A stretch of DNA of 23,271 nucleotides, taken from positions 1 to 23,271 of the IMG/VR virus record IMGVR_UViG_3300045141_000178, one strand, 5' to 3'. Below, piece after piece: positions 5,834 through 13,164 of this stretch (position 1 is the stretch's first letter; each line of letters starts with the position of its first letter). The stretch is from a virus. The translations under genes were made by a program, and so were the position numbers. The notes below the pieces were generated by a model that had not been told where the DNA came from, did not search any database, and saw only the letters and a list, made by a program, of their open reading frames with translations.

Positions 5834-6082
5834 TCAGGCGACTTCGCAGGGCTTGCTATCACTCCGTACGGGTCGCGCCGGACCGGCGTCGAGTTGGCCG
5901 AGCGTCAACCGATAGCCGGCGCGGTCGGCGATCTTCAGCAGCGTCGCAAAGTGACGCGGTGGAATGCCGTCGTCATTGCGCCAATGGCTGATCGTCGTGT
6001 TCGACAGGCCGAGCTTTTCGGCAAGCCGGACTTGCCCGCCGAGCCGCTTCGATAGCTGGTCGATGATCCGGCTGTGCTCCAT
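5834..6082 (-). CDS. Cro-like small HTH protein (carph-isopro type)
   Basis: I place the start at ATG 6082 (82 aa), because the longer frame would begin at a TTG inside the operator palindrome. The helix-turn-helix is QVRLAEKLGLSNTTISHWRNDD followed by GIPPRHFATLLKIADRAGYRLTL, the pattern of the 'carph-isopro' HTH family: a repressor-like HTH, then I-P-P-R and a helix ending in LTL. It is the first gene of the leftward early operon, divergent from the XRE repressor, the position of Cro. The proposed -10 hexamer (6091-6096) would place the transcript start at or within a few bases of the ATG, and no Shine-Dalgarno is visible, so the mRNA may be leaderless. It presumably binds the same TTGCCY-N3-RGGCAA sites or regulates the repressor; this is inferred. 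Confidence 0.85.
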   Translation of the reverse strand: MEHSRIIDQLSKRLGGQVRLAEKLGLSNTTISHWRNDDGIPPRHFATLLKIADRAGYRLTLGQLDAGPARPVRSDSKPCEVA

Positions 6083-6090
6083 CAAGCCCG

Positions 6091-6119
6091 ACGGTAATTG
6101 CCTACAAGGCAACGGTCAA
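6091..6119 (-). promoter_or_regulatory. Leftward early promoter with operator in its spacer
   Basis: Read on the minus strand, TTGACC (6119-6114) and TACCGT (6096-6091) are separated by exactly 17 bases, and the 15-bp operator 6098-6112 fills that spacer. The -35 matches the sigma-70 consensus at five of six positions and the -10 at three. Transcription would begin near 6084, right at the ATG (6082) of the Cro-like gene. A repressor bound here would block polymerase directly. Confidence 0.65.
6098..6112. promoter_or_regulatory. Operator copy 1, TTGCCT-ACA-AGGCAA
   Basis: A perfect 6+3+6 palindrome, one of five copies of TTGCCY-N3-RGGCAA in the window. It lies inside the leftward early promoter, 16 bases upstream of the Cro-like gene's ATG. 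Its centre is 92 bp from operator copy 2. It is presumably bound as a dimer site by the XRE repressor, the Cro-like protein, or both. Confidence 0.82.
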
Positions 6120-6186: not shown

Positions 6187-6207
6187 CAGTTGCCCAAAGG
6201 GCAACTG
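6187..6207. promoter_or_regulatory. Operator copy 2, extended palindrome at the repressor's ribosome binding site
   Basis: The core TTGCCC-AAA-GGGCAA (6190-6204) is extended by three more paired bases on each side, making a perfect 9+3+9 palindrome, the strongest of the five copies. It runs into the GGGAG (6207-6211) that serves the repressor gene, so a bound repressor would limit its own synthesis. It also lies upstream of the leftward promoter and could cooperate with copy 1. Confidence 0.85.
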
Positions 6208-6217
6208 GGAGATGCTA

Positions 6218-6652
6218 GTGAGAATCCGGCGCAAAAAGTATCCTCGCCGCATGATCAAGCAGGCGAAGCGGGGGATCAGCATTGACACGCTGGCCGGCGT
6301 GGGCGTGCGGCTTCGTATGCTGCGTGGGGTTCTCGACCGCACGCAAGCCGAGTGGGCAGACAGGTTAAAGATTTCGCGGCAGATGCTGAACAAGTGGGAG
6401 CAAGGCGTCCGACAGCCCAACATGGATAAGCTCATAGTGATCTGCGACACGACCGGATGCACCCTGGACTTCATTTTTCGCGGCCAGGTGGGCATGGACA
6501 TGAGAGAGGGGCTCAGGAGGGCTTTGCTCGTTTCCTATGGCGACAGCCCTTACGTTTCCGAGCTTTTCGCGCCAGCAGTGCCACCGCCTCCCCCATCTTC
6601 TCCAGCGCGTCGGCGGCGTAAGCAGGGTCCACGGTCTGACGCGGCGGGGTAA
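6218..6652 (+). CDS. XRE-family prophage repressor
   Basis: The protein (144 aa) has a classical XRE/Cro-CI helix-turn-helix: GVRLRMLRGVLDRTQAEWADRLKIS-type first half, then SRQMLNKWEQGVRQPNMDKL and CDTTGCTLDFIF. I favour GTG 6218, six bases after GGGAG; ATG 6212 directly abuts that GGGAG and ATG 6251 has no ribosome site. There is no S24 peptidase domain, so induction would not be by LexA-like self-cleavage. The C-terminal 35 residues are Pro/Arg-rich, and the DNA there also encodes a better-looking ORF on the opposite strand (6513-6689). Operators at 6187-6207 just upstream, and further sites at the left and right early promoters, make it the best candidate for the immunity repressor. Which protein binds the operators is inferred. 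Confidence 0.85.
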   Translation: MRIRRKKYPRRMIKQAKRGISIDTLAGVGVRLRMLRGVLDRTQAEWADRLKISRQMLNKWEQGVRQPNMDKLIVICDTTGCTLDFIFRGQVGMDMREGLRRALLVSYGDSPYVSELFAPAVPPPPPSSPARRRRKQGPRSDAAG

Positions 6653-6758: not shown

Positions 6759-6773
6759 TTGCCCTTTGGGCGA
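6759..6773. promoter_or_regulatory. Operator copy 3 (one mismatch), TTGCCC-TTT-GGGCGA
   Basis: This copy has a single mismatch from the palindrome (GGGCGA instead of GGGCAA), but is enclosed by an outer inverted repeat, ACGGT on the left (6751-6755) and ACCGT on the right (6773-6777). It is 96 bp, centre to centre, from copy 4. It lies between the 58-aa minus-strand ORF and the rightward operon, so it could control either. A TTGACG hexamer (minus strand, 6750-6745) lies nearby, but I see no good matching -10. Confidence 0.65.
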
Positions 6774-6854: not shown

Positions 6855-6869
6855 TTGCCTAGAAGGCAA
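6855..6869. promoter_or_regulatory. Operator copy 4 at the rightward early promoter, TTGCCT-AGA-AGGCAA
   Basis: A perfect 6+3+6 palindrome 52 bases upstream of the first gene of the rightward operon. Its left half, TTGCCT (6855-6860), could double as a -35 box with TAGGCT (6879-6884) as -10 at an 18-base spacing; both are mediocre matches. That would start the transcript near 6891, ahead of the GGGAG that serves the ATG at 6921. Confidence 0.78.
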
Positions 6870-6920
6870 CTCTGTGCCTAGGCTGCTCCCGCAGGCTCAT
6901 ACACAAAGCGGGAGCCGGTC

Positions 6921-7460
6921 ATGTCGGATAGCGCGGCGCCACAGGTTCCGTCAGGCTACCAGCTAGAGCGGGCGGTCTCGCTCTGGCAGCAATTACGCGA
7001 CGTCTATGATCTCGATCCGTCGCTTGCCGAGGACGAGGACGTCATCAACACGGCTTTCGCCGACGCTGAAATAACGCACCCTGATACGCTGCTTTCACGT
7101 GCGATTGACGCGCTCGTCTGGTGCGAGCGCCGCGAGGTCGAGGCGGACGATATCCGTCGCGAGGTCATCGCCCGGCGCGATCGCTACCGCGCGCGCGCGT
7201 CAAATATCCGGGTCATCATCGCCGAACTGCTCGACGCGCTACGGATCAGGTCGCACCGCGCGAAGTATGGGGCCGCGAGCTTGGCGGCTGGTCCGCCTTC
7301 GGTCGTGCTGACCGACGCCGATCTCGTGCCTGACGAATTCGTCCGGATCGAGCGGCATGTCCAATTGACGCCGATCAAGGAAGCGATCGAGGCCGGTCGG
7401 GAAGTCCCCGGCGCGGTTATGTCGAACGGCTCGACGGTCCTACGGATAAGGAAACTCTGA
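6921..7460 (+). CDS. Siphovirus Gp157-family protein
   Basis: The 179-aa protein matches the Gp157 family throughout. The N-terminus reads YQLERAVSLWQQLRDVYDLDPSLAEDED, the middle is a long charged coiled coil (EVEADDIRREVIARRDRYRARASNIR), and the C-terminus carries the conserved GPPSVVLTDADLVPDEFVRIE and IKEAIEAGREVPGAVMSNGSTVLRIR. Gp157-type proteins are encoded in early phage operons next to recombinase genes, and one member was linked to phage resistance when expressed in Streptococcus; the molecular role is unclear. A GGGAG lies seven bases before the ATG. It is the first gene of the rightward operon and its stop overlaps the bet start (TGATG). Confidence 0.92.
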   Translation: MSDSAAPQVPSGYQLERAVSLWQQLRDVYDLDPSLAEDEDVINTAFADAEITHPDTLLSRAIDALVWCERREVEADDIRREVIARRDRYRARASNIRVIIAELLDALRIRSHRAKYGAASLAAGPPSVVLTDADLVPDEFVRIERHVQLTPIKEAIEAGREVPGAVMSNGSTVLRIRKL

Positions 7461-8665
7461 TGGCGCAGGCAGCCCGCGAGCGGCAGGCATTGATGCCCGC
7501 GCCGCGCTATACCAAGCCGGCGATATTCGCCGGGACCGAGGCCGCCTGGCGCGTCCTGTGCGATCTCTATCCGTCCGCCGAGACGCCGGACATCGTTATG
7601 GCGGTCGTCGAGTATTGCGCGGCGAAGCGGCTCGATCCGTTCAAGGGCCCCGTGCACATCGTCCCGATGTGGAATTCCAAGCTACGCCGGCGCGTGCAAA
7701 CCGTCATGCGCGGGATTAATGAGATCGAGATCGTCGCGTCGCGGACCGGCGTATGGGCCGGGATGGATCTTCCGCAATGGGGGCCAGATCACGAGCGGAC
7801 GTTTCGCGGGACGCGCGAGAATGACGACGGATCGGTCCGTGAGGTCGAGCTAAGGCTGACATTCCCACTCTGGTGCGCGGTCACGGTTTACCGGCTCGTC
7901 GCCGGCGAGCGGCGCGCGTTTACCGAGCAGCTATTTTGGGAAGAGTGTTACGCAATGTCGGGCTTCAGGTCCGAGGTCCCGAACGAGCGCTGGGCGAAGG
8001 CGCCGCGTCAGATGCTTCACAAGTGTTGCAAGGCGGCGGTGCTACGCGCGGCGTTCCCGGAGGAAGGTCTCGGCTATGCCGCCGAAGAGATGGAGGACCA
8101 GTTTACCAAGGCGGGCGGCGTGACGATCGAGGGGAATACCGATCACGGCGACGCCGGTCTGACCGATCGGGACCGGCAAGCGGCACAGTACGGCCACAAG
8201 GCCCCGTCGTCGTCCTCTGGCGAGGATACAGCCGGCGTTGACCCGCTGATGGAACCCAACGGCACGATTTGGCTAAAGAACCTCACGGCGCTTCTAGCAG
8301 CGGCGCCGAACCTGGCGCGCGTCGTCGAGATCGCCGGTCACCAGCGCGTCCGCGCATCGCTCGAAACCGCGCCACCGCTGATCAAGGACCGGATCAATGC
8401 GCTGTTGAAGCAGGCCTACGAGTTGTTTGCGCCCAAGGCCGCGGACGAGCCACCGCCTGGCGATGACGGCGCCGACTGGAACACCAGCCCGACCGACGAA
8501 CTGCTCGCCGAGATCGAGGAAATGGACCTCGACGCTCTCGACACGCTGCCAAGCAGCAAGGCATGGGCTGCGAAAACCCGCAATCTGATCCCGCCCGATC
8601 ACGACACCATAAACGAGGCGATCGCGCTTCGCCGGGCGGTACTGAAGGGAGGCAATCCGACATGA
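7460..8665 (+). CDS. bet: Phage recombination protein Bet (RecT/Red-beta superfamily)
   Basis: The first 215 residues are a Bet domain: AVVEYCAAKRLDPFKGPVHIVPMW near 48-71, VQTVMRGINEIEIVASRTGVWAG, and the C-terminal ERWAKAPRQMLHKCCKAAVLRAAFPEEGLGYAAEEM. These proteins anneal complementary single strands during phage recombination, usually with a partner exonuclease and the host single-strand-binding protein. The remaining 185 residues are an extension, partly acidic (a DELLAEIEEMDLDALD stretch), beyond the usual length of about 260-300 aa, and may hold a protein-interaction module. An AAGGA precedes the start, which overlaps the Gp157 stop. No lambda-Exo, RecE or SSB gene follows, as would be usual. 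The stop overlaps the next ATG (ATGA). Confidence 0.93.
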   Translation: MAQAARERQALMPAPRYTKPAIFAGTEAAWRVLCDLYPSAETPDIVMAVVEYCAAKRLDPFKGPVHIVPMWNSKLRRRVQTVMRGINEIEIVASRTGVWAGMDLPQWGPDHERTFRGTRENDDGSVREVELRLTFPLWCAVTVYRLVAGERRAFTEQLFWEECYAMSGFRSEVPNERWAKAPRQMLHKCCKAAVLRAAFPEEGLGYAAEEMEDQFTKAGGVTIEGNTDHGDAGLTDRDRQAAQYGHKAPSSSSGEDTAGVDPLMEPNGTIWLKNLTALLAAAPNLARVVEIAGHQRVRASLETAPPLIKDRINALLKQAYELFAPKAADEPPPGDDGADWNTSPTDELLAEIEEMDLDALDTLPSSKAWAAKTRNLIPPDHDTINEAIALRRAVLKGGNPT

Positions 8666-8877
8666 ACAAGCGCAACCCCGACCACGAAATGACCGTCATG
8701 CAGCGCGGTCTTCGTGATCTCGCGGCATTAAGTCCGACCGGCCGGCGCCGCGTCCTCGCCTATTGGTGCGCGCGCGCCGAGGTGATGATGCCGGCAAACA
8801 GTGAGCCGCACGGCGAGCAGCAATTGGATATCGAGGACGTACCGATGATGCCGCATCTCAAAGGCGCTGCAGCATGA
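8662..8877 (+). CDS. Hypothetical early protein (71 aa)
   Basis: The start at ATG 8662 overlaps the bet stop as ATGA and its own stop overlaps the next start in the same way, so it is a genuine member of the operon. It carries a helical segment with TVMQRGLRDLAALSPTGRRRVLAYWCARAE-type sequence, then an acidic tail (QQLDIEDVPMMPHLKG). No motif, signal or membrane segment is evident. I do not recognise the family. The helix-rich N-terminus with SPTGRRRVLAYW resembles short phage proteins that accompany recombinases. Confidence 0.7.
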   Translation: MNKRNPDHEMTVMQRGLRDLAALSPTGRRRVLAYWCARAEVMMPANSEPHGEQQLDIEDVPMMPHLKGAAA

Positions 8878-9128
8878 AAGCGCGAACGCTCGCCGAGATC
8901 GACGCCGAGGCGAGCGCGAGCGCGACCGTGCCACGCCTCATTGACGCGGACCAGATCGCCGACCTGATGCACCTCGACAAGCGACAGGTTTACCGGCTCG
9001 TGCGCGAAGGGAAGTTTCCCCGCCCGACGATCGAGGTCGGACGGTATCGGCGTTGGAGCGCAAGTGATTATGTGACCTGGGTCGAGGCGCAGCGGACCGA
9101 GCGCGCGAAGCGGGGGCGCTATGCCTGA
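8874..9128 (+). CDS. AlpA/excisionase-like MerR-type HTH protein
   Basis: The 84-aa protein has the small winged HTH of AlpA and phage excisionases: PRLIDADQIADLMHLDKRQVYRLVREGKFPRPTIEVGRYRRW, where D-Q-I-A-D-L-x-x-x-D-x-R-Q-V-Y-R is the helix-turn-helix and FPRP...GRYRRW the wing, followed by SASDYVTWVE. AlpA-type proteins act as transcription factors or recombination directionality factors. With a tyrosine integrase 2.7 kb downstream, this is the best excisionase candidate in the window, and its position in the repressor-controlled early operon would couple excision to induction. A regulator of operon genes is the alternative. Both ends overlap neighbours (ATGA at the start; the stop lies 8 bases into the next gene). 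Confidence 0.85.
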   Translation: MKARTLAEIDAEASASATVPRLIDADQIADLMHLDKRQVYRLVREGKFPRPTIEVGRYRRWSASDYVTWVEAQRTERAKRGRYA

Positions 9129-9327
9129 CCTCTTGCCGGTCACGCTCGACGACATGATCGCCGAGCTTCGCCGCGAGTGCCGCATGCGGCGTGAAGTGTA
9201 CGCGCGCGCGACGAGCGATGGACGCATGAACCGCCGCGCCGCCGATCGCCGGATCGACGTGATGGACGCGACGCTCGCTTACCTCGAGCAACGCCGAAGC
9301 GAACAGGAGAACGCCGATGGTCGATGA
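9121..9327 (+). CDS. Small phage protein, early-operon family
   Basis: The 68-aa, all-helical and charged protein has DMIAELRRECRMRREVYARATSDGRMNRRAADRRIDVMDATLAYLEQ-type sequence. The pattern (an R-E-x-x-M-R-x-x-V-Y segment, then an ARG/GRM turn and A-D-R-x-I helix) recurs in short proteins of alphaproteobacterial and other phages, where it is uncharacterised. It begins 8 bases before the end of the AlpA-like gene and its stop overlaps the next gene. No enzymatic motif is present. Confidence 0.78.
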   Translation: MPDLLPVTLDDMIAELRRECRMRREVYARATSDGRMNRRAADRRIDVMDATLAYLEQRRSEQENADGR

Positions 9328-9532
9328 ACGGTGGAACGACGCAAACCGGCGACGCGACGGATTGGCGGTTGTCGAGGGGATCGGCAATTACCTGATAATG
9401 CCCGGCGCCGAGGGCCTGCCGATCGACAAGTGCCCCTGCTGCGACAAGCCGTTTCCGCTGACCGCGACGGGATTGCGCGCCGCGCGGCTGATCGCCGATG
9501 CGATGTATCCGATCGAGGAGCCGGGCGGTTGA
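9317..9532 (+). CDS. Small zinc-finger-like protein (CPCCDKPF motif)
   Basis: The 71-aa protein contains one CPCCDKPFPLT knuckle at about residues 38-48 within an otherwise short alpha/beta sequence. One CxxC alone cannot complete a zinc site, so it would need dimerisation or may be a relic of a zinc ribbon. The N-terminus (DERWNDANRRRDGLAVVEGIGNYLIMPG) is followed by a C-terminal helix ATGLRAARLIADAMYP. It overlaps the previous gene by 11 bases, and its own stop overlaps the TTG start of the next micro-gene. Function unknown. Confidence 0.72.
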   Translation: MVDERWNDANRRRDGLAVVEGIGNYLIMPGAEGLPIDKCPCCDKPFPLTATGLRAARLIADAMYPIEEPGG

Positions 9533-9615
9533 ACGTGCGCGCGCTCGTCCACGCCGCGCTGCTCGCGATCCTGCTTTGGTCGGTCATTCTCGTATTCATC
9601 GAGCTAGGTATGTGA
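9529..9615 (+). CDS. 28-residue single-pass membrane peptide
   Basis: A TTG at 9529 overlaps the previous stop as TTGA, with GAGGAG eight bases upstream, and the frame ends at TGA 9613-9615. The peptide is almost entirely one hydrophobic helix (VHAALLAILLWSVILVFIEL) and its stop overlaps the next ATG (TGATG). Overlaps at both ends and a good ribosome site argue that it is translated. Micro-proteins of this kind may modulate membrane enzymes or lysis timing. Nothing more specific can be said. Confidence 0.58.
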   Translation: MNVRALVHAALLAILLWSVILVFIELGM

Positions 9616-9848
9616 TGACGCTCCCGCGCTGCCGGTGCGGACGCAAGCCGCTGACCTACGCGCCGGGAAGCCCGCCGACCTACGCGCCGGGCGGTATCCT
9701 GATCGCCGCCGGCCGTCCGGTCGAAGCATGGTGCCAGCGGTGCGCGGCGGCCCGTGGGTGGCTCGTCGCGCCGACAGCGGCGAAGGCAGCGGCGGCTTGC
9801 CCGACGCCGCGTAGCGCGCGGAAAACGGCGCCGGCGGCGCGGCCATGA
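9615..9848 (+). CDS. Small zinc-ribbon-like protein (77 aa)
   Basis: Four cysteines form two knuckles, CRCG at about residues 6-9 and CQRC near 40-43, spaced as in a small zinc ribbon. Between them lies a proline-rich duplicated segment (TYAPGSPPTYAPGG). The tail is alanine-rich and basic, and may be disordered or nucleic-acid binding. The start overlaps the membrane peptide stop (TGATG) and the stop overlaps the next start (ATGA). No family name can be given, although short zinc-ribbon proteins are common in early phage operons. Confidence 0.7.
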   Translation: MTLPRCRCGRKPLTYAPGSPPTYAPGGILIAAGRPVEAWCQRCAAARGWLVAPTAAKAAAACPTPRSARKTAPAARP

Positions 9849-10231
9849 CGACGAGGTGGCCCGGCGTTGCGTTGGTCGCGCTGGACGAATACGACGTGCC
9901 GCCCGTTAGCGGGTTCGGTCCGCAAGCTGGCGTGCTTCTGGACGCAATGATGGAGTGCCCAATGATCCACCGCGCGCGCTACACCTTCGAGCGGATCGGC
10001 AGCGCCGTGTTCATTGTAGATCTGAACGAAGGCCGCTCGGTTACCAATGACGCGGAAGCGGTGATCCGCGATTTGGTCGAGCGCGGGATCGAGGTCGATC
10101 GCGCGTTGATCGTCTACCAGGACTCAACCGGACTGTGGGACCAGCTTCGGACGCGGCGTAGCGAGTTCGCCGGTGTCCGCGCGCTCGGCGCGCGCGACCG
10201 GATCGAAGCGATACAGCGGGCGCGCCGTTAA
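9845..10231 (+). CDS. Conserved phage hypothetical protein, end of the rightward operon
   Basis: The 128-aa protein has a recognisable C-terminal module: GSAVFIVDLNEGRSVTNDAEAVIRDLVERG, then RALIVYQDSTGLWDQL and an EFAGVRALG strand. This beta-alpha-beta pattern (V-F-I-V-D-L-N-x-G-x-S-V-T-N-D-A-E) recurs in uncharacterised phage proteins of alphaproteobacteria. The first 40 residues are probably a variable extension, and an in-frame ATG at 9961 could be an internal start for the conserved module. Its TAA shares bases with the TAA of the convergent cargo gene in a GTTAAC palindrome, so the two transcription units meet end to end. Confidence 0.75.
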   Translation: MTTRWPGVALVALDEYDVPPVSGFGPQAGVLLDAMMECPMIHRARYTFERIGSAVFIVDLNEGRSVTNDAEAVIRDLVERGIEVDRALIVYQDSTGLWDQLRTRRSEFAGVRALGARDRIEAIQRARR

Positions 10232-11082
10232 CGAAATTGGGGCCTCTTTTCGTGCTCCCAGGGAAGATAGATAAGTCGTCGAGGCATGGTAGTAAGCGCC
10301 GTGCTGACCCAGGCCGCCTCAAAGTCTCCCATTCCGAGGTCTCGGCACCTAACGAGCCCTTCCCGAGCAGGCCAAATAGAGATGAGGCCGTATCGGTCAA
10401 CCATCAATTTAGAGATATCGTTCAGTGGAACGCCAGAAAGCGCGGTACTAAAGCTCATCATGAACAGCCTTCCCAAGGCTCCGGCAGTGGTCTGACAGTC
10501 TATGGTCAGAGCTGGGGCCACTGGCTCTGGACGCGCTTCTGAAGGAATGCCTAGCTCGCTGGGCTCCTTCCACGCGAGATGACTAGTCGCTCCGTGCCAT
10601 CGTAAGCTTTCGTTTGTCCCAATCCATATTGCCCAACCGGAAGGCGGCTGGCGGTGCATCCGCAAGGAATTCCGTTCATCAAAGCTGGTCAGTTGGGTCG
10701 CGGGGTCGGAAAACTCATTCACCATTGTGAACATTGTAATCCAATTTGCTAACGCTCTTCGGTCTACTTTCCCCAAATACGGATTTTCCCCTCGCAGAAA
10801 CTTAACGAGGATTTTTTTGGCAGAGGCCTGCATCAGGCTCATCCAACCATTGTTGCAGTCCTTGCATGCGATCTTCAACCGCTGTGAAAACACGCTGCCT
10901 GGTCTGTCGAGCTTGCCCGGCCTCACTTCGAATGTCGCCATATCCTCCCCTAGTACGGAGGAAGTTAAATGTCTCGAGTGCCCGTCTGTGGGGATGTGGT
11001 TCCTGAGCCAATCCGGCCACGTGTGCTCTCGTGTGAGCCCATGGCGCCCACAGAAAGCGCACTTCCCAGGAGGGTTAGCCAT
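10228..11082 (-). CDS. HNH-type zinc endonuclease-like cargo (moron) gene
   Basis: The 284-aa protein begins KCAFCGRHGLTREHTWPDWL, with Cys8-x2-Cys11 and Glu19-His20, and returns with IACKDCNNGWMS containing Cys73-x2-Cys76 and Asn77-Asn78. CxxC...EH..P.W...CxxCN is the signature of a large HNH-like family often annotated simply as HNH endonuclease. The 200-residue C-terminal part is unfamiliar and may recognise a target. It lies on the opposite strand from its neighbours, and its DNA is visibly richer in A/T, with different codon use, indicating recent acquisition. Independent orientation at an operon junction is typical of lysogenic-conversion or defence cargo. A role in superinfection exclusion is inference only. 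No clear promoter was found upstream. Confidence 0.75.
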   Translation of the reverse strand: MANPPGKCAFCGRHGLTREHTWPDWLRNHIPTDGHSRHLTSSVLGEDMATFEVRPGKLDRPGSVFSQRLKIACKDCNNGWMSLMQASAKKILVKFLRGENPYLGKVDRRALANWITMFTMVNEFSDPATQLTSFDERNSLRMHRQPPSGWAIWIGTNESLRWHGATSHLAWKEPSELGIPSEARPEPVAPALTIDCQTTAGALGRLFMMSFSTALSGVPLNDISKLMVDRYGLISIWPAREGLVRCRDLGMGDFEAAWVSTALTTMPRRLIYLPWEHEKRPQFR

Positions 11083-11325
11083 AGCAAGAACTTCGCGCCA
11101 TCAACGCAAAGACACCCTCGTCGAGAGGTTCCAATCCATGCAACGGCGGCAAGGCATCCGTGCACGTTCGCATGGTAGATCGCATGGTCACCGGCAGGCT
11201 TTCCACTAAGTCATTGAAAGTATGTGGCATTTACGCCGAATATGCATTGTTCACCATTTCGCCAGACGACATTCCACATGATCATGCTGACTGAAAAAAT
11301 CTTGCCTTTTCCGCAGCTTAGGCGC

Positions 11326-11354
11326 TTGATGAGTTGCCCTTAAGGCAATACGAT
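11326..11354 (+). promoter_or_regulatory. Repressor-controlled promoter before the secreted-protein gene
   Basis: TTGATG (11326-11331) and TACGAT (11349-11354) are spaced by exactly 17 bases, and operator copy 5 occupies the spacer, as at the leftward early promoter. Each hexamer matches the sigma-70 consensus at four of six positions. The predicted start near 11361 leaves a leader of about 47 bases before the ATG at 11408. Confidence 0.7.
11334..11348. promoter_or_regulatory. Operator copy 5, TTGCCC-TTA-AGGCAA
   Basis: The outermost copy of the TTGCCY-N3-RGGCAA operator, 4.5 kb from the immunity region. It fits the consensus, the two half sites differing only at the innermost base. It sits between the -35 and -10 of the promoter that reads into the secreted-protein gene and on towards the integrase. 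Confidence 0.8.
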
Positions 11355-11407
11355 CCTCTGGAATGACAACCGGGGTCGCATGATTTTCGCATGGTGGGAG
11401 ACACGAT

Positions 11408-11722
11408 ATGCACATGCTTTGTTCCCTCGCGACGGTCCTGGCGCTCACCAGCGCCGCCACGGCCTTGGCTCAATTGCCGCCGGTCTCGATCGAGAACATT
11501 CGCGGCTTCGCCGGCGCCGGCATGGCGCCGATGAACGGGGACCTCAAGGTTCTCCACCAGTGTCCCGAGATCACCCGGTGGCCGGCGGATATGACGCCCG
11601 CCGAGGTCGCCGAGGCTCGCGCCCTGCGTATCGATCCCGGCGCGCTCTGGCTCCGTCGAAACGATGCCGCGATCGCTAAGTGTCTCGCCGGCTTGTCAGC
11701 CGAACAGCGCCGCATCGACTGA
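11408..11722 (+). CDS. Small secreted/periplasmic protein under phage operator control
   Basis: The 104-aa precursor has a textbook signal peptide: a short N-terminus, a hydrophobic core (LCSLATVLALTSAATA) and an ALA-Q cleavage site near residue 21-22. The mature part of about 83 residues contains two cysteines (in LHQCPEI and IAKCLAG), able to form one disulfide, plus a segment PADMTPAEVAEARALRIDPGALWLRR. GGGAG lies seven bases before the ATG. It is the first gene after the operator-bearing promoter and is followed by two hairpins. Exported phage-encoded proteins can alter surface receptors or block superinfection, but since the operator predicts repression in lysogens, a role during lytic growth or lysis is at least as likely. 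Family unknown. Confidence 0.75.
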   Translation: MHMLCSLATVLALTSAATALAQLPPVSIENIRGFAGAGMAPMNGDLKVLHQCPEITRWPADMTPAEVAEARALRIDPGALWLRRNDAAIAKCLAGLSAEQRRID

Positions 11723-11723
11723 A

Positions 11724-11740
11724 GGGGACGCCACGTCCCC
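11724..11740 (+). terminator. Hairpin 1 after the secreted-protein gene
   Basis: GGGGACG and CGTCCCC pair perfectly (7 bp) around a CCA loop, two bases after the stop codon. No U-tract follows, so it may be an attenuator or mRNA-stabilising stem and not a stand-alone terminator. Confidence 0.5.
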
Positions 11741-11755
11741 TGATCCACACAAGCA

Positions 11756-11784
11756 AACGGCGCCCTGTTGCAAAGGGCGCCGTT
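11756..11784 (+). terminator. Hairpin 2 between the secreted-protein gene and the integrase
   Basis: AACGGCGCCCT and AGGGCGCCGTT form a perfect 11-bp stem with a seven-base loop (11767-11773). The following bases, GTCTCG, contain only scattered T, so termination may be partial or Rho-assisted. It ends 28 bases before the integrase start, so it may set integrase expression relative to the upstream promoter. Confidence 0.62.
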
Positions 11785-11811: not shown

Positions 11812-13164
11812 GTGAACGCTACCACCGCCCCCGCCAGGCCACAAGCCGGCAAGCTCGCCACTGGCGCCGATATCAAGCGCGCGACGCCGGGCGCCAAGCT
11901 CCGCTTCGGCGGCGGTCTCTATCTGCTCGTCTCGTCGGCCGCGAAGTCTTGGCAAGTTCACTATCACGTCGCCGGTCGGCACCAGGCCGTGATCGTCGGC
12001 CGCTGGCCCGATCTCGGCGTGACCGAGGCAAAGACGAAGCGCGACGAGATCAGGCGCACGATCCGCGAGGGCGGGGATCCGGCACACGAACGGCGCGAGC
12101 GGCGCCAGGCGCGGCAGGACGCCGAGGCCGCGACCGTGCGCTCGGTCGGCGAGCGCTGGCTTGCCAGCGCGTCGGTGGCGCGCGGATGGTCGGCGAACTA
12201 CCAACACCACATAGGGCTGCGCCTGAAGAACCACATCTATCCGGTGATCGGCGACCGGCCGGTCGCCCGCGTCACGACGCACGAGATCGAGTCGCTGATT
12301 GTCGGGTTAGCGAAAAACTTCCGCTCACAGGCGGATCACGCCCGACAGAATTTGCAATCACTGTTCGACTTCGCAGCGCGGCGCGATCTCGTGACCGTCA
12401 ATCTGGTACGCAAGATCGCCGAGGATCTGCCGAGGCGGATTCCAGGCGATGAAAACGAGATTTGCCGCGCGCATGTCGAGACGATCGAGGATGCGCGCGC
12501 CGTGCTCGCGGCGGTTGAGGCATATAACTCCGGGCCATTCGCCAAGTTGGCCCATCGGCTAATCGCATTGACCGCCGTCCGCAAGCTCGAAGGTCTCGAA
12601 GCGCAATGGTCCGAGATCAAGGAAGGACCGGACGGCATGACGTGGACGATCCCGGCGGCGCGGATGAAAGGCCGGCGCGGCAAGCGGCGCGAGCATGTCC
12701 TCCCGCTTCCACCACAGACGGCAGACGTGTTCCGCGCGGCGCGCGAGCTTGCACGGGCGAGCGGCGTCAAAAGCCCGTTCGCATTTCCCGGTCGAGGCAT
12801 GCGCGGCAACCTCGCGCGCAACACCCCGAATTTCCTATTGGCGTATGCGCTCGCAGGTACCGATCTCGCCGGCCGGCATACCGTTCACGGATGGCGCTCG
12901 ACGTTCTATACCGTGCTGAAAGAGGCGGATTACGATGAGCGGTTGATCGATGCGATGCTCGCCCATCAGCCGGCGCGGCCGTCGCAGGCGGCGCAGCATT
13001 ACGATCGGTCTCGATTGATCCGCAACGGCGCGCATCTACAACCGCTGATCGACCGCCGCCGGCTCGCGACCGCATGGGCCGATCTGCTCTTGGCCGGGGC
13101 ACCATCGCCGTTCGTGCTGGCGGGCCTGACGAGCAACGTCGTGCGACTGAGGGAGGCAGCATGA
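11812..13164 (+). CDS. int: Tyrosine recombinase integrase (P4-type with arm-binding domain)
   Basis: The 450-aa protein has three parts: an N-terminal arm-type DNA-binding domain (LRFGGGLYLLV, SWQVHYHVAGRHQAVIVGRWPDLGV, residues 27-85), a SAM-like core-binding domain (about 108-210, with HIYPVIGDRPVARVTTHEIE) and a catalytic domain. Expected catalytic residues are visible: Arg257 (TAVRKLE), Lys286 (ARMKGRR), His359 and Arg362 (HGWR), His385 (LAHQ) and the nucleophile Tyr397 (QHYDRS). It starts at a GTG with AAGGAAGGA six bases upstream. It should recombine attP with a host attB, often a tRNA gene in this family. It has phage genes on both sides. The stop overlaps a following 26-codon ORF (ATGA). 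Confidence 0.95.
   Translation: MNATTAPARPQAGKLATGADIKRATPGAKLRFGGGLYLLVSSAAKSWQVHYHVAGRHQAVIVGRWPDLGVTEAKTKRDEIRRTIREGGDPAHERRERRQARQDAEAATVRSVGERWLASASVARGWSANYQHHIGLRLKNHIYPVIGDRPVARVTTHEIESLIVGLAKNFRSQADHARQNLQSLFDFAARRDLVTVNLVRKIAEDLPRRIPGDENEICRAHVETIEDARAVLAAVEAYNSGPFAKLAHRLIALTAVRKLEGLEAQWSEIKEGPDGMTWTIPAARMKGRRGKRREHVLPLPPQTADVFRAARELARASGVKSPFAFPGRGMRGNLARNTPNFLLAYALAGTDLAGRHTVHGWRSTFYTVLKEADYDERLIDAMLAHQPARPSQAAQHYDRSRLIRNGAHLQPLIDRRRLATAWADLLLAGAPSPFVLAGLTSNVVRLREAA

Follow-up and report, generated by a model that had tools for sequence, protein, structure and literature searches.

A putative integrase operon with exchangeable, probably exported cargo behind an operator of the phage's own immunity class

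The C1 repressor of phage P1 has 22 operators distributed over P1 DNA (PMC8546580), and in Acetobacter phage phiAP1 an attB-L has been reported in the upstream region of int (PMC8566455). Among envelope-acting phage proteins to be compared with the one described below, Cor of phi80 and N15 inactivates a receptor (PMC11436027) and SieA of P22 is expressed from the prophage (PMC10883804). The window analysed here, a linear IMG/VR virus record taken over its full 23,271 bases, resembles P1 in that one repressor is predicted to shut separate transcription units through operators that include one far from the immunity region. P1, however, has asymmetric 17-mer operators and a plasmid prophage, whereas the window carries five palindromic sites, the distant one at the int promoter. 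Judging from sequence comparison, we consider it likely that this distant site belongs to a temperate-phage integrase operon with cargo, whose promoter overlaps an operator of the phage's own CI/Cro system.

Judged by its baseplate protein, the phage comes closest, among cultured phages, to Acetobacter phage phiAP1 (44.6%) and Komagataeibacter phage phiKM1 (43.3%), which suggests a host that belongs to, or resembles, the Acetobacteraceae. Scanning viral contigs first with the integrase and next with an integrase alignment yielded 11 loci; L019 equals L020 in the part read 5′ of int, such that ten loci and the window make up the 11 distinct int loci compared below. Both the int promoter and the immunity region were read in eight of them (the window, L011, L016, L012, L013, L014, L017 and L020), and these served for the comparison of immunity classes. 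Two scans of bacterial genome contigs, for prophage hosts and for att mapping, gave no confirmed relative. L014 and L017 are two related phage units on one contig (IMGVR_UViG_3300046536_000173; 83,470 bases), separated by about 41 kb; each has its own int and operators, and they may be tandem prophages.

Operators and the int promoter region

The immunity region and the distant operator comprise the following features.

5834-6082, minus strand: Cro/YdaS-like HTH protein (ATG at 6082 proposed)
6098-6112: operator in the leftward early promoter, exact copy
6190-6204: operator directly 5′ of the repressor gene, exact copy
6218-6652, plus strand: CI-like repressor, HTH_3 (GTG start proposed)
6759-6773: operator with one mismatch
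6855-6869: operator 5′ of the rightward early operon (Gp157, RecT), exact copy
11302-11316, plus strand: TTGCCTTTTCCGCAG, either a degenerate operator or an alternative −35 region, lying 32 bp 5′ of the operator
11326-11354, plus strand: promoter-like TTGATG-17-TACGAT spanning the operator (TTGATG 11326-11331, TACGAT 11349-11354)
11334-11348: operator TTGCCCTTAAGGCAA in the int promoter region, an exact TTGCC-N5-GGCAA (copy 5 of an earlier note on this DNA)

The earlier note had placed operator copy 5 within a TTGATG-17-TACGAT promoter some 4.5 kb from the immunity region and had likened this arrangement to the leftward early promoter. Each of these statements agrees with the sequence: the 17-bp spacer holds TTGCCCTTAAGGCAA at the coordinates given, the distance from 6869 to 11334 is about 4.5 kb, and the leftward early promoter, on the minus strand, is built alike (TTGACC-17-TACCGT), with the operator at 6098 inside its spacer. 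The exact form TTGCC-N5-GGCAA occurs four times in the window (6098, 6190, 6855 and 11334), in addition to the one-mismatch copy at 6759, versus about 0.02 exact copies expected from a first-order Markov simulation of the window. This copy number, together with the matching of classes across loci described below, rules out a chance palindrome.

The TTGATG and TACGAT hexamers are weak, sharing 8 of 12 bases with the sigma-70 consensus, and a promoter pattern scan did not report the pair at 11326. A second possible promoter, composed of a −35-like TTGCCT within 11302-11316 and a −10-like element immediately 5′ of the operator, overlaps the first and is the part that aligns among relatives, so that the −10/−35 assignment at the int promoter is ambiguous. 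The versions of TTGCCTTTTCCGCAG in L011 and L016 are one base off the operator arms. In the window the int promoter has a single operator, versus several in the immunity region. About 205 bp 5′ of the operator, the palindrome TTGCAATCCATGCAA is found in L012, L013, L014, L016, L017, L020 and others at a near-fixed spacing in both immunity classes; it is decayed in the window, where its counterpart is TTCCAATCCATGCAA (11129-11143), and in L011. It was weighed as a second operator, but L016, a member of the other class, also has that type.

The surroundings of the promoter are laid out as follows.

11169-11186, plus strand: left CGCATG direct repeat pair, putative integrase arm sites
11244-11256, plus strand: GCATTGTTCACCA, core-like element of the putative attP, conserved in the alignment
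11377-11393, plus strand: right CGCATG direct repeat pair, putative arm sites, directly 5′ of the Shine-Dalgarno sequence
11408-11722, plus strand: 104-aa ORF with a predicted signal peptide (approximately residues 1-21), followed by a helical mature domain that contains C52 and C92
11756-11784, plus strand: GC-rich, terminator-like hairpin between the ORF and int, possibly attenuating int
11812-13164, plus strand: tyrosine integrase (Arm-DNA-bind_3, Phage_int_M, Phage_integrase), the downstream gene of the two-gene unit

Most of the loci share one order 5′ of int: CGCATG repeats, the core-like GCATTGTTnACCAcaa, an operator-type palindrome, a second CGCATG pair, one to three small ORFs, the GC-rich hairpin and int itself. 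Some repeat and core copies are degenerate, and the left CGCATG pair can be made out in most of these 11. This arrangement looks like an attP-int module with a putative att site; the scans found no integrated copy with host flanks. The hairpin at 11756-11784 shows compensatory changes among relatives and in the window folds better than shuffled sequences (z −3.3).

Several further elements were seen in this part of the phages. Directly 3′ of the ORF stop and before the conserved hairpin, the window has a perfect short hairpin (GGGGACG-CCA-CGTCCCC, 11724-11740), of which none was noticed among the relatives read. A 284-aa protein with an HNH-like start (CAFCGRHGLTREHTWPDWL) and a weak PHROGs match only is encoded at 10228-11082 on the minus strand, in the interval that separates the early operon from the attP-like region. 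On the left of the attP-like block, L020 has an adjoining tRNA-Leu (7006-7098; anticodon aag as called) that is absent from the other loci scanned, and L012 has, directly adjacent at 7212-7362 (equal to about 5212-5362 of L004), a CRISPR-like mini-array carried on a phage contig. Its 29-nt repeat, CGGTTCATCCCCGCATGCGCGGGGAACGC, is type I-E in look, with a period of 61 and 32-nt spacers; one spacer, searched against viral contigs, matched only itself.

Operator class and immunity class

The eight loci fall into a TTGCC/GGCAA class (n=3: window, L011, L016) and a TTGCA/TGCAA class (n=5: L012, L013, L014, L017, L020). In each of the eight, the int-promoter operator has the class of the locus's own immunity region, 4 to 7 kb farther upstream. 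Repressor identity to the window divides along the same line, at 99% (L011) and 69% (L016) within the class versus 27-34% in the other, as does that of the Cro-like protein (99% and 80% versus 34-41%). Neither Gp157 (L016 61%, other class 62-65%) nor Int (L016 62%, other class 59-67%) shows such a split. Between L016 and the window, identity is 88% in the promoter block but 52% in the adjoining attP-like core and 64% in the left arm region, and thus a block of about 50 bp tracks the immunity class rather than the flanking attP-like DNA. For L011, identity to the window is 96% in the promoter, 99% in the repressor and 83% in int.

With three and five loci, random assignment would give a complete class match about once in 56 times. 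Shared ancestry of the three GGCAA-class phages could explain part of the match, and since independent class changes are few, the evidence from class matching is strong, not overwhelming. The earlier note had called the gene behind this promoter a true member of the repressor's regulon, and membership is supported by the match in 8 of 8 loci, by the split of repressor and Cro-like protein along class lines and by operator copies beyond chance. That the operator at the int promoter follows the immunity class argues that the palindrome marks a repressor-controlled integrase promoter.

An alternative is that the palindrome serves chiefly as a binding site for Int/Xis or the Cro-like protein instead of the CI-like repressor, and that the gene is consequently on in the lysogen. 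The similarity of the Cro-like protein also splits by class, and Int arm-like repeats flank the promoter. We nevertheless regard this as improbable, for the same palindrome recurs in the leftward and rightward early promoter regions, the expected places of action of a CI-type repressor, and Int, which shows no class split, is unlikely to be the reader of the class. As a comparative case the locus is unusually clean: its distant operator covaries with the immunity repressor, and the sequence alone is enough to recognise regulon membership.

The slot between the attP-like region and int

The 104-aa ORF is preceded by a Shine-Dalgarno-like GGGAG and has homologues in L013, L018 and L020 (31-36% identity) and in L022/L023 (61% overall, 64% in the mature part). 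Values of dN/dS are 0.24 for the window and L022 and 0.18 for L013 and L020; these, with the codon-position pattern, rule out a non-coding ORF, and by this sequence evidence it is a real gene under coding selection. L002 was rejected as a homologue, its match covering 14 aa on the strand opposite a long coding ORF.

The N-terminus is hydrophobic and ends A-L-A|Q. Its h- and c-regions are present, with no K/R in the n-region of the window copy, whereas the four homologues have one. In each of the five family members the N-terminus is hydrophobic and closes with a motif of the A-X-A type, and signal-peptide-like N-termini also occur in unrelated occupants of the slot. The protein is probably exported, through what is predicted to be a Sec-type signal peptide. 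The earlier description of a signal-peptide protein with two cysteines holds for the mature part, which has C52 and C92; a third cysteine, C5, lies in the signal peptide. Both mature-part cysteines are invariant in the family, as are W81, R83 and about 16 other positions, and a C52-C92 disulfide could form. A structure prediction, which the earlier note had proposed, gave a confident model of five short helices (AlphaFold; mean pLDDT 85, reaching about 90 or higher across most of residues 31-100). Fold searches with this model came back empty, and the product had no significant match to a protein family, a solved structure or a viral model; Pfam, PHROGs, NCBIfam, PADLOC, the PDB and phage records were covered. 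The family thus appears to be an undescribed small helical one, with no relatives in the databases searched.

Occupants of the slot differ from phage to phage. The window and L011 have the same immunity, yet their slots hold unrelated proteins, both predicted to be exported; the second family is common to L011 and L014 (a low-confidence model of strands and one long helix) and a third is found in L016. In L012, L015, L017 and L021, which make up four of the 11 loci, the small slot ORFs lack an evident signal peptide and so include no recognisable exported protein, which indicates that export is dispensable for the int module. The signal-peptide DNA of L013 and L014 is 92% identical (58/63), whereas the mature parts belong to different families, suggesting exchange at the signal-peptide boundary; a gapped global alignment with no shuffled baseline puts their mature DNA at 65% identity, a figure not to be taken for homology. 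In L022/L023, the 64% homologue stands beside an unrelated integrase with neither operator class nearby, and the ORF family is therefore not tied to operator control.

The earlier idea that the promoter serves mainly the exported protein is not borne out. The attP-like/int arrangement in 11 distinct loci makes it best read as the promoter of the integrase gene, the small ORF being variable cargo; int is probably what the operator mainly serves. Whether the cargo is a mere passenger is a separate matter. According to one reading, to which we give somewhat less than an even chance, the operator serves int and the exported protein is moron-like, with a benefit unrelated to induction and with low expression in the lysogen by leakage or from adjacent host promoters. 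The unrelated slot contents of phages with the same immunity point this way, as do the homologue beside another integrase that lacks the operator and the signal-peptide DNA shared by two phages with different mature families. As in morons, a variable gene occupies a conserved site and is absent from a close relative (window versus L011). Against this, the ORF is first after the promoter and has its own Shine-Dalgarno sequence, and should then share the control of int; moreover, the only promoter region seen upstream of it is the operator-bearing one of int, which argues against a promoter of its own that is active in the prophage.

Among candidate roles for the protein, to which the earlier note counted lysis helper, inhibitor of envelope targets and receptor masking, our best guess is an action at the envelope early in infection, in superinfection exclusion or receptor masking, in effect like Cor or like Llp of T5. 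The predicted export signal, the conserved cysteines and the early timing predicted from the promoter are consistent with such a role, and fast turnover of the slot is what would be expected of a gene for competition between phages. The searches, however, linked it to no exclusion protein by sequence or fold, and a good many of the exclusion genes known are active in the lysogen, the state in which the int promoter should be off; although it is the best guess, we hold the proposal to be on the unlikely side. Far less probable still is a periplasmic lysis regulator for lytic growth only, such as an RI-type antiholin of T4 or a spanin-like helper. The size, the helices, the two cysteines and the expected absence from lysogens recall RI, and one family member weakly matches an Rz1-like LysC model (E 0.098). 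The model nevertheless had no significant PDB fold match, and a gene that adjoins int and is absent from close relatives would be unusual for lysis.

According to the mechanism we favour for the operon, the repressor would shut the int promoter in the lysogen, and neither Int nor the small protein would be made. During infection before the repressor builds up, and again at induction, the promoter would fire. The first product would be the small Sec-type signal-peptide protein with its predicted five-helix domain and two conserved cysteines; the second would be the integrase, made by read-through past the leaky terminator-like hairpin. The earlier note had the protein exported only on induction. 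Expression at induction is indeed expected, but a promoter that is off in lysogens and on at both infection and induction makes this too narrow, as early infection should be included. For this group of related phages we put forward, as somewhat less likely than not, a dedicated attP-int slot behind a class-matched int promoter, where one small exported protein replaces another, at times with the signal peptide kept; the slot would give a brief envelope-acting pulse at infection and induction only. The slot also marks a place in these phages from which new small exported proteins, lacking relatives in the searched databases, can be collected for tests of envelope action and phage competition.

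Comparison with known systems

In the literature searched, which covered few subscription papers, we found no direct precedent for an int promoter controlled by the immunity repressor or for exported morons near attP. The module is like P4-type integrase modules in its Arm-DNA-bind_3 integrase, its attP-like region 5′ of int with arm-like direct repeats, and the AlpA/Xis-like HTH gene nearby; unlike these, it has a cargo gene between promoter and int and an immunity operator in the promoter, and its att site is putative. The cargo resembles phage morons and lysogenic conversion genes in being small, variable and horizontally exchanged, in its fixed place and in the terminator-like hairpin that follows, but no independent promoter that is on in the prophage was seen, and it apparently uses the repressor-controlled int promoter. 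Cor is comparable to the ORF product in its small size and its export, whereas the prophage expression of P22 SieA is the opposite of the pattern expected for the window ORF, and neither protein has detectable sequence or fold similarity to the product. Dispersed operators are already known from P1, and an att site 5′ of int has been reported in phiAP1; the protein family appears to be new.
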